64,000 nt of DNA from an uncultured Armatimonadota bacterium (lineage in GTDB: Bacteria > Armatimonadota > Fimbriimonadia > Fimbriimonadales > Fimbriimonadaceae): assembly GCA_903927025.1 (NCBI GenBank), contig CAIYLG010000013.1, forward strand, positions 1-64,000, given 5' to 3'. How positions within the stretch are numbered: position 1 is the first letter of the stretch; each line of letters starts with the position of its first letter. Made by a program: the position numbers and the translations under genes. Under the pieces are notes generated by a model. That model saw nothing but the letters and a program-made list of their open reading frames with translations. It did not search any database and was not told the origin of the DNA. This document shows, in pieces, positions 1-5,514 of the stretch.

Positions 1-182
1 AGAGCGCGAAGCTCCTTGAGCTCGCTGCTCTCCATGCCGCCGTACTTCTCGCGCCAGCGGTAGATCGTCTGATCCGTGACTCCGTGAGCCCTTGCCACTG
101 ACGCTATCGCGCCGCCAGCTTCGATTTCCTTCAACACCTTTAGGATCTCGTCCTCGGTGTAGCGCTTGCCAGTTTTCTTCAT
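1..182 (-). mobile_element. IS3-family transposase OrfA, 3' part off window
   Basis: The minus strand reads from an ATG at 182 to the window edge without a stop, giving 60 codons. The product begins MKKTGKRYTEDEILKVLKEI and continues through GVTDQTIYRWREKYGG, the classic N-terminal helix-turn-helix of IS3/IS911-type OrfA (HTH_Tnp_1), which binds the terminal inverted repeats of the element. The rest of OrfA and the catalytic OrfB would lie left of base 1. The terminal repeat of the IS probably lies just upstream of this start, near 237, where the minus strand reads TGACGTGTCCCCC, fitting the TGA/TGT ends of the family. Whether the element is intact cannot be seen. Confidence 0.85.
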
Positions 183-237
183 GTGATTCCAGACGGATTT
201 CACACTTCAAGTGGGTCAAACTACGGGGGACACGTCA

Positions 238-427
238 CGACGTCATCCCTGACTATTCGACGCTGGAAGTAGCTGGCTTTCGATGGCGGACCTCCGCGCG
301 TCAGCTTCGTGCTGACGGCCATCTCCCCCAGCCCATCACGAGAGGAGCCCTGAAGTTCTATTCACGGGCTCAGATCCTATCAGTGCTTGAGAGCGACCAC
401 ATTCTCGCTCGTTTCAGGGAGTAGCTA
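238..427 (+). pseudogene. AlpA/excisionase-like HTH remnant next to the IS end
   Basis: One plus-strand frame ending in a TAG at 425-427 encodes EVAGFRWRTSARQLRADGHL followed by PQPITRGALKFYSRAQI. This matches the pattern of AlpA/excisionase (HTH_17, MerR-like) winged helices: EVA, a turn, RxLxxxGxLPxPI, then a basic strand and a FxRxxI/L helix. No native start is visible because the frame runs leftward into the antisense of the IS OrfA. I infer that IS insertion near 237 removed the start and first residues. Such proteins usually regulate or excise integrated elements, which fits the tRNA fragment at 1178. The family call rests on pattern alone. Confidence 0.45.
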
Positions 428-886
428 TTAGAACCTAAGGTTCTTCGCTTTCGCCTGCAAGTCATTGACCGATTTCAGCTCAGAAAGCGCGTTTTTCCGT
501 TCAAGTTCCAATTTCGGAAGCGCCTTATTATTCAGGTGGATTGCTGCCAATTGGTTGGCAGAGGAAATAATATCTTTGACAATATCTATCTGGAATTGAA
601 GATCGTCTCCACTCCCGATAATCACCTTAATGCAGTCTCCAAGTACATTGGACTCTCTCTGGCTTGCACTCCTCGGCACGTGGCACGCCTGTTGAAATAG
701 CTGAACCCAGTCGTTGGAAGGCACCCTATCCAAGTGGATGGTGAAGACCAATGCCCCTTGGAAATTCGTAGATTTCGGAAAGTCCGTAGAGTTCGCGCCG
801 ACTACCGAAATCGGAGTTAGCTGCTTGATGAGCGCTTCTCGCTTCTGGTCAAACTCTTTGTTGATATCTTCTGCAGTGGTTGTCAT
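428..886 (-). CDS. Hypothetical protein, 152 aa
   Basis: I do not recognise this protein. It is soluble, with no signal peptide or membrane segment. Residues 1-25 (TAEDINKEFDQKREALIKQL) and 125-150 (LELERKNALSELKSVNDLQA) look helical and possibly coiled, flanking a mixed middle part with VVGANSTDF and LVFTIHLDR. It stands alone between the HTH remnant and a gene-free stretch. The ATG at 886 has no clear Shine-Dalgarno sequence. Its place between the IS and the tRNA fragment suggests cargo of an integrated element; that is inference. Confidence 0.55.
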   Translation of the reverse strand: MTTTAEDINKEFDQKREALIKQLTPISVVGANSTDFPKSTNFQGALVFTIHLDRVPSNDWVQLFQQACHVPRSASQRESNVLGDCIKVIIGSGDDLQFQIDIVKDIISSANQLAAIHLNNKALPKLELERKNALSELKSVNDLQAKAKNLRF

Positions 887-1177
887 ATTGTTCTCGTAGG
901 TTCAGGATGAAATTGGGCCGACACACAATACAGTAGACGTCTGCCTACCTACTGCTCTAGCACTCAATTGCAATGAGTGTCAAATACTCCACTTGAATTT
1001 TTGGATTGTTTCTTCCCTTGCATAGAGGTGAGTTCGCCCATGGCCCACGAAATCGGAAGGAGTAACGGAAGCAGCTATCATTCCGCTCTGTGCCGATTCA
1101 ACTAAACACAGTGGCGATAATCGTGCTATATTTGAGTCTGTAGGAACGGGAATCGCCTTGTTCTCGGCTTCGGCAGA
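887..1177. other. Gene-free stretch left of the tRNA fragment
   Basis: No open frame with protein-like composition is seen on either strand. It is visibly more A/T-rich than the housekeeping regions, for example around 930-1020. It should hold the promoter of the minus-strand gene ending at 428, but I cannot point to convincing -35/-10 boxes. The bases just left of the tRNA half at 1178 do not fold into a D-arm or pair with the acceptor end. Confidence 0.4.
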
Positions 1178-1227
1178 AACGGTTCATACCCGTTAGATCA
1201 CCTGTTCAAGTCAGGTCGCCGCTACCA
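1178..1227 (+). other. 3' half of a tRNA(CAU) gene, probable attachment site
   Basis: The bases form a perfect anticodon arm (AACGG, loop TTCATAC with anticodon CAT at 1185-1187, CCGTT), a 5-nt variable loop, a perfect T arm (ACCTG, loop TTCAAGT, CAGGT), the acceptor strand CGCCGCT, discriminator A and an encoded CCA at 1225-1227. The matching 5' half is absent: the acceptor partner AGCGGCG and a D-arm cannot be found upstream. A 3' tRNA half on its own is what integration by a tyrosine recombinase into a tRNA gene leaves at the distal end of an island. The island then lies to the left, where the IS and the excisionase-like remnant sit. The complete tRNA gene should be outside the window. Confidence 0.7.
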
Positions 1228-1373
1228 CTTCTCCTTTGGAACGTAGATTCAGGCTCTACGCCATTCGTGGGGCAACTCTTCTTCACCCGGCCTACGAGCA
1301 CATTACCCTCACTCTTAGTCGGTAGTTTTCAAAGTTTCTAAATCCGTTGAACCGTGATCAACTAGGGTGACAG

Positions 1374-4443: not shown

Positions 4444-5514
4444 CTAGCGCTTGGAAGCAACAACCGTAGACATCTCCAAGAGCATCCGCTCTAGCGAGTC
4501 CAGTGCGCTAAAACCTTCGAGCGAACCCTTTAACCGAGCATCCGTGTCCGCCAATATGCCGAAGCACAACTCCAATTGCTTAAAAGTAAGCTTCTTCGCC
4601 GTCGCCATTACTGGAGCGATTCGGTACGGCTGTTCCTTGGAGAGACTGTTCTTGCTCGGCAGAACTTTGACTCCTCCAACGACTGCGGAAGGCACGGTTA
4701 CATTTGCCTCGACACACGCTCTCGCCTGCCAAAGCAGACGCAGGTGACGCCCAATTGTGGGCAGAATTCGGGAAAAGGCTGCGTCTTCTGCTTTGTTGAC
4801 CGAGCCGGTGAGGATGCGGAGCTGGCGCAGCGCTTCTGGCACATTCCCCTGAAACACGCTGTCCACCATCTTGAACACGTTCCACTCTCTGGACGGCATG
4901 ACAACGTCCCGGACGTCGCTGTCGCGGATCTGCTTTTGATCGCCGACGTACAGTTCCAGCTTCGCAAGCTCACCGACGCCTCGACTGAAGCTGCCGCCGG
5001 TCATCTCCACCAAGTTGGACAGCGCTTGGTCAGACATCGTCTTCCCCATCCGTGCCACTTCAAGCTTAAGTTCTTCTTTTGCGGCTTTGGGATCCGATTC
5101 AAAGCTGTAATGTTGCCCACCGGCGGATTCGACTATCTTCACCCATTTTCCGGCAGCAGTTTGAAGACGCCGTTGCTTATCATCGTCCCCATTCTCTTCG
5201 TCAGCAACCAGGATGAGGCGAGAGAACTCCGGCAACTGGGAAAAGTCAGTTTTGCCAAGTTTCTCAATATCAAAGCGAAGCACCTGTCGGACGACGACGG
5301 TCCTTCGCTCAGAGAGAAATGGAGATGTCCCTGCGGCATGGAACCAATCCAACGGTGACGACTCATCTCCAATGAAGGTGGAAAGGTCAAAATCGTCCTT
5401 CTCTATTCCTGCTGCCTTGATCAGTTCATGAAACGCCTGCTGGCGCAGCGCCTCTTCCCCTTTCCCTAGCAGCACCAGTCGACCAGCCGCGGCGGCTTCG
5501 GCGGGAAACCTCAC
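4444..5514 (-). CDS. holA: DNA polymerase III subunit delta (HolA)
   Basis: This is the clamp-loader delta subunit, which opens the beta sliding clamp for loading onto DNA. The N-terminus has the family pattern VLLGKGEEALRQQAF followed by FHAAGTSPFLSERRTVVVRQ (residues 60-80), and the C-terminal collar part includes AFSRILPTIGRHLRLLWQAR and LEGFSALDSLERMLL. Its 356 residues are normal for the family. It is the last gene of a minus-strand operon. The start is GTG, and GTGA overlaps the stop of the transglutaminase gene by 4 nt, so translation is probably coupled. Placement of holA behind a MoxR/DUF58/transglutaminase set is unusual. Confidence 0.85.
   Translation of the reverse strand: MRFPAEAAAAGRLVLLGKGEEALRQQAFHELIKAAGIEKDDFDLSTFIGDESSPLDWFHAAGTSPFLSERRTVVVRQVLRFDIEKLGKTDFSQLPEFSRLILVADEENGDDDKQRRLQTAAGKWVKIVESAGGQHYSFESDPKAAKEELKLEVARMGKTMSDQALSNLVEMTGGSFSRGVGELAKLELYVGDQKQIRDSDVRDVVMPSREWNVFKMVDSVFQGNVPEALRQLRILTGSVNKAEDAAFSRILPTIGRHLRLLWQARACVEANVTVPSAVVGGVKVLPSKNSLSKEQPYRIAPVMATAKKLTFKQLELCFGILADTDARLKGSLEGFSALDSLERMLLEMSTVVASKR

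Follow-up and report, generated by a model that had tools for sequence, protein, structure and literature searches.

The 50 nt at positions 1178–1227 of the window come from a methionine tRNA gene, whose 3′ half was displaced when a small, now broken mobile element inserted into that gene. By the window we mean the whole stretch of DNA analysed (64,000 nucleotides), which is bases 1–64000 of contig C13 in a 66-contig genome; nothing to the left of base 1 is assembled. The displaced half illustrates a known process clearly: it is the standard tRNA-gene island end (attR), here of a decayed element. Next to it, an ISL3-family insertion sequence (IS) has left a stump; the IS belongs to a widespread clade that we consider likely to target the 3′ ends of tRNA genes. 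This association is a more surprising result than the island end itself. The features are collected in Table 1.

Table 1. Features of the window around the displaced tRNA half, and sites with tandem ISL3 right ends. Positions are those of the window unless a contig or locus is named.
Feature	Position	Strand	Remarks
IS3-family IS end (terminal repeat; OrfA start at 203, reading left)	1–237	−	PF01527, 1.2e-15; multi-copy; cut by contig start
Remaining right-hand part of integrated element	238–1177		Between IS3 end and tRNA half
Displaced 3′ half of tRNA-Met(CAU), attR-type site	1178–1227	+	49/50 against 3′ end of intact tRNA
Original downstream flank (trailer) of tRNA-Met gene	1228–1251	+	CTTCTCCT; resembles TTCTCCT of G004
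ISL3-family right-end remnant (terminal repeat and transposase C-terminal coding stretch), tRNA-facing clade	1252–1345	−	Continues into transposase in G031
Conserved chromosomal 356-aa ORF, synteny anchor right of insertion	4447–5514	−	62% identical in G004
Tandem ISL3 right-end sites	C57:26675–26730, C53:140202–140350, L218, L250, L266		

The displaced half and the intact tRNA-Met gene

The sequence of the displaced half (AACGGTTCATACCCGTTAGATCACCTGTTCAAGTCAGGTCGCCGCTACCA) includes a CAT anticodon arm, the variable region, the T arm, the acceptor 3′ strand, a discriminator A and CCA, and its 3′ arms fold correctly. The 50-mer occurs once in the window, with no occurrence expected by chance. 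The same genome has an intact tRNA-Met(CAU) gene at C17:65234–65310, in direct orientation; contig C17 ends ~1.3 kb further on. We aligned the two sequences from their 3′ ends and found that the last 50 bases, C17:65261–65310 in the intact gene, are identical at 49 positions (98%), whereas only 8 of the first 27 bases, corresponding to the 5′ part, match. The single substitution is carried by the displaced half, as expected of a copy that has ceased to serve as a gene. A genome-wide search found no other site that matches tRNA-Met(CAU) comparably, leaving one intact copy of that sequence. The 5′ half is absent from the whole window with up to three mismatches allowed; ARAGORN called no tRNA in the window, and Rfam found no family at gathering score there, and no intron.

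The preliminary description, made from the window alone, had claimed a 3′ tRNA(CAU) half with all parts from the anticodon arm to CCA, a missing 5′ half, and integration into a tRNA gene as the origin of both. The composition of the half, the 49/50 versus 8/27 identity and the integrase-like gene behind the intact tRNA (see below) agree with it on all three points. By its own account it would have fallen had the 50 nt had no copy elsewhere in the genome, or had a full tRNA fold with an unusual D-arm been found here; C17 carries the copy, and the window holds neither a called tRNA nor the 5′ half.

The decayed element and the two contigs

A series of tyrosine-integrase-like ORFs at C17 ~65431–66501 starts ~120 nt behind the intact tRNA-Met. 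Two separate frames gave PHROG “integrase” matches (0.0011 and 0.0091). Pfam matched the frames weakly, to PF22022 and PF00589, with scores below the curated cut-offs, and PF00589 was matched at 0.0015 over residues 220–355 when two apparent frameshifts were read through. The integrase contains an R-box-like stretch (RDAGVRIGEACGVRI) and stops at an IS3-family end, before the HxLRH region. The complete catalytic set (R, HxxR, Y) is reduced to the R-box-like stretch, the rest having been removed by the IS3 element, indicating that the integrated element is a dead remnant of a tyrosine-integrase tRNA-gene island and not a mobile member. Peptide-pattern searches found no close relatives of this integrase in other genomes or in viral contigs; within the genus there are weak relatives only, none of them adjoining a tRNA. 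On the other side of the tRNA-Met, a divergent peptidase-like gene lies upstream that is kept beside tRNA-Met in the loci of 14 relatives; the two are adjacent in relatives and separated here by ~2.9 kb (C17:62337–65233) that includes a 373-aa ORF.

With the IS3 copy left out, the element remains as ~1.2 kb on the left, on C17, and 0.94 kb on the right, in the window. The right-hand part contains a 152-aa ORF (431–886, minus strand) of no known family, with no Pfam match, no relative in viral contigs and a marginal PHROG match to a family of unknown function (E 0.038). To its left is the IS3-family end, at window position ~237; the genome has ~20 near-identical copies of this element, mostly at contig ends. 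Many contig ends of the genome, including the first base of the window, are broken at IS3-family copies. The same OrfA/OrfB ends and terminal repeats of the IS3 family (PF01527 OrfA) occur at both contig ends, and we found no difference from that family; this is an ordinary multi-copy IS. The preliminary description had placed an IS and an excisionase-like remnant to the left of the tRNA half. The latter is not supported: the helix-turn-helix ORF at 3–203 (minus strand) is the IS3 OrfA (PF01527, 1.2e-15), and the 152-aa ORF has the marginal PHROG match only.

We compared the facing ends of the two contigs. The end of C17 shows the C-terminal side of the IS3 OrfB, and the start of the window shows the OrfA side, in orientations compatible with one bridging copy. 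Contig C102 of the closest relative, G004, holds in this order the genes of C17 (15–25 kb), a tRNA-Met (24995) that is the only one of its type in G004, and the genes of the window (from 44185). The 356-aa anchor ORF, which was present in 31 of 31 genomes searched, is on this contig of the G004 tRNA-Met. From the IS orientation and the synteny with G004, both observed directly, we infer that C17 and C13 are joined through one IS3 copy; the two contigs probably adjoin. The flanks of the IS3 junction (...CAAG on C17, CGAC... on C13) show no target duplication, so additional sequence may separate C17 from C13, or a deletion may have taken place between two IS copies. Between the tRNA-Met of G004 and its 356-aa ORF are ~19 kb of ordinary genes of metabolism, including by inspection methylmalonyl-CoA mutase-like and pyruvate carboxylase-like ORFs, which indicates that this region was rearranged as well. 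Behind the displaced half, the trailer is similar to the TTCTCCT that follows the intact tRNA-Met of G004, and unlike the TCTTTTGA that follows the intact tRNA-Met of C17. The preliminary description had expected the complete tRNA, with the same 3′ end in direct orientation, and a tyrosine integrase next to it to lie beyond base 1. Such a tRNA and a tyrosine-integrase-like gene lie side by side, but on C17, which is probably linked to the window, to judge from the IS orientation and the G004 synteny.

Origin of the displaced half

We consider it highly likely that an integrase-bearing element inserted into the tRNA-Met gene and then decayed, with the ISL3 stump alongside. In this model, a small element would have had a tyrosine integrase and its own copy of the last 50 nt of tRNA-Met. 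The integrase would have recombined that copy with the chromosomal gene, between anticodon and CCA, and in this way inserted the element. The insertion would have rebuilt a complete tRNA-Met at the left end of the element, now on C17, and moved the gene's own 3′ half to the right end, now at 1178–1227. During the subsequent decay, the integrase would have acquired its two apparent frameshifts and been truncated by the IS3-family element. An ISL3-family element, of which a 94-bp right end is left, would have landed 24 nt past the 3′ end of tRNA-Met; the simpler order is the ISL3 element first and the island later. The order of events and the past activity of the integrase are what we infer here, starting from a direct repeat, and an integrase-like gene beside the intact tRNA, that are observed as such.

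The arrangement is that of Islander-type islands, in which an intact tRNA lies beside the integrase at one end and a displaced 3′ fragment, in direct orientation, at the other (PMC4383910). Unlike such islands, the element described here is decayed, with a broken integrase and a gap between C17 and C13. The tRNA half could instead be a fragment of a gene duplication, or a scar of replication or recombination, with no integrase involved. Such an origin would suit the very small size of the element and the weak recognition of its integrase, and the genome contains a second tRNA half with no integrase at all. This is a 3′ 55-nt piece of tRNA-Leu(CAG) at C17:1037–1091, identical at 54 of 55 positions to the intact gene at C17:187–273 and lying 0.76 kb behind it; the segment between them holds only an ORF for a DUF6036 nucleotidyltransferase. 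However, the tRNA-Met repeat is in direct orientation and extends exactly from the anticodon stem to CCA, an integrase lies directly behind the intact copy, and the Islander description (PMC4383910) fits point for point, so that we regard an integrase-free origin as improbable. We count the tRNA-Leu half as a second case in this genome, supporting the island model.

The half might also have been made by the ISL3-family element, if insertion or one-ended events behind tRNAs copied their 3′ ends. Both tRNA halves in the genome precede ISL3 ends, with gaps of 24 nt and 36 nt, and several ISL3 loci of other phyla sit behind tRNA 3′ fragments. Against this, most ISL3 ends (47 of 61; see below) lie behind complete tRNAs that are not duplicated, and complete copies show an 8-bp target duplication only; we therefore judge an ISL3 origin of the half to be very improbable. 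The proper folding of the 3′ arms might still speak for a functional tRNA gene at this place, interrupted by a group I intron or degenerate in its D arm. We rejected this reading, whose probability is negligible, given that no 5′ half lies anywhere in the window, that ARAGORN and Rfam found no tRNA and Rfam no intron, and that C17 carries an intact tRNA-Met(CAU) gene.

An ISL3 clade facing tRNA 3′ ends

Starting 24 nt behind the tRNA-Met half, the window has a repeat whose first bases are GGCTCTACGCCATTCGTGG. The same repeat lies behind tRNA-Leu, two tRNA-Val and tRNA-Gln in the same genome, and five other genomes of the genus have it behind many tRNAs. Copies at contig edges show an ISL3-family IS of which the repeat forms the right end, where the C-terminus of the transposase also lies. 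The identity of the stump at 1252–1345 was observed directly in genome G031, where the same sequence runs into an ISL3 transposase (PF01610, DDE_Tnp_ISL3, 9.6e-56); the window keeps its C-terminal coding end only. We had also considered the 79-nt repeat as a terminator-like hairpin or a conserved trailer RNA, and dropped both since the G031 contig-edge copies enter the ISL3 transposase. The preliminary description had not mentioned this ISL3 end. At the tRNA-Leu locus (C17:187–1177), each tRNA copy has an ISL3 end behind it, in the case of the half at a distance of 36 nt. Elsewhere, tandem shortened ISL3 right ends of 7–80 nt each often pile up between the tRNA and the newest copy (sites in Table 1), resembling a log of one insertion after another at the same place.

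We scanned genome contigs with the G031-type transposase and obtained 80 loci (L195–L274) from many phyla, which are close relatives of one query with several copies per genome, so that counts among them are not counts of independent events. Facing tRNAs were scored within 350 nt, among the 61 loci in which 450 nt or more of sequence follow the transposase stop. A tRNA 3′ end faces the IS at 47 of these 61 loci, with a local background expectation of ~0.0023 per locus. None of the 61 has only a reversed tRNA within 350 nt of the IS, and none of 65 loci has a tRNA within 350 nt on its other side. The facing tRNAs represent sixteen amino-acid types, and one locus that lacks a facing tRNA has a tmRNA instead. 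Complete copies are 1.24–1.32 kb long with 25-bp inverted repeats, and ten related complete loci have exact 8-bp target duplications with no evident common sequence. As a control in the same genus, we scored another ISL3 clade (30% identical), which faces a tRNA at 0 of ~16 loci, versus 7 of 8 for the tRNA-facing clade. Some ISL3 copies with no full tRNA lie behind tRNA 3′ fragments (L232, L238, L255 and L263, also L233 and L251; judged by eye), and these fragments look like distal island ends in other bacteria.

Based on these counts, it is likely that a widespread ISL3 clade targets tRNA (and tmRNA) genes at their 3′ ends, inserting 0 to ~100 nt behind them, and that the window holds the stump of one such insertion. 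Insertion in one orientation and with no apparent motif would mean that the transposase, or something it contacts, reads the identity and polarity of the tRNA gene. The clade shares with the ISL3 family (PF01610; IS204/IS1001/IS1096/IS1165 group) its transposase family and Zn ribbon, ~25-bp inverted repeats starting GGCTCT, the 8-bp target duplication and a length of ~1.3 kb; unlike the other ISL3 clade of the genus, it lies behind tRNA or tmRNA genes in a single orientation. Tn7-like and CRISPR-associated transposons use tRNA-flanking sites, and yeast Ty1 and Ty3 and Dictyostelium TRE insert at a distance from tRNA genes, where the host tolerates them. The ISL3 clade likewise inserts at a distance from tRNA genes. 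Unlike those elements, it consists of ordinary small ISs with a single DDE transposase; neither a separate targeting protein nor a guide RNA or Pol III factor was seen, the distance is variable and the orientation is fixed. A literature search, mostly outside subscription journals, found no report of ISL3 elements targeting tRNA genes, and a large survey of IS neighbours does not mention tRNA (PMC9208149).

The displaced tRNA half fixes the right end of the island and points to two probably adjoining contigs. If the ISL3 clade does target tRNA genes, a one-gene transposon reliably finds a safe zone behind them, in one orientation, in a clade that spans Acidobacteriota, Armatimonadota, Verrucomicrobiota, Gammaproteobacteria and others. 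It would then be a bacterial counterpart of the eukaryotic tRNA-targeting retroelements, with a targeting rule that is testable with one protein and one tRNA gene.
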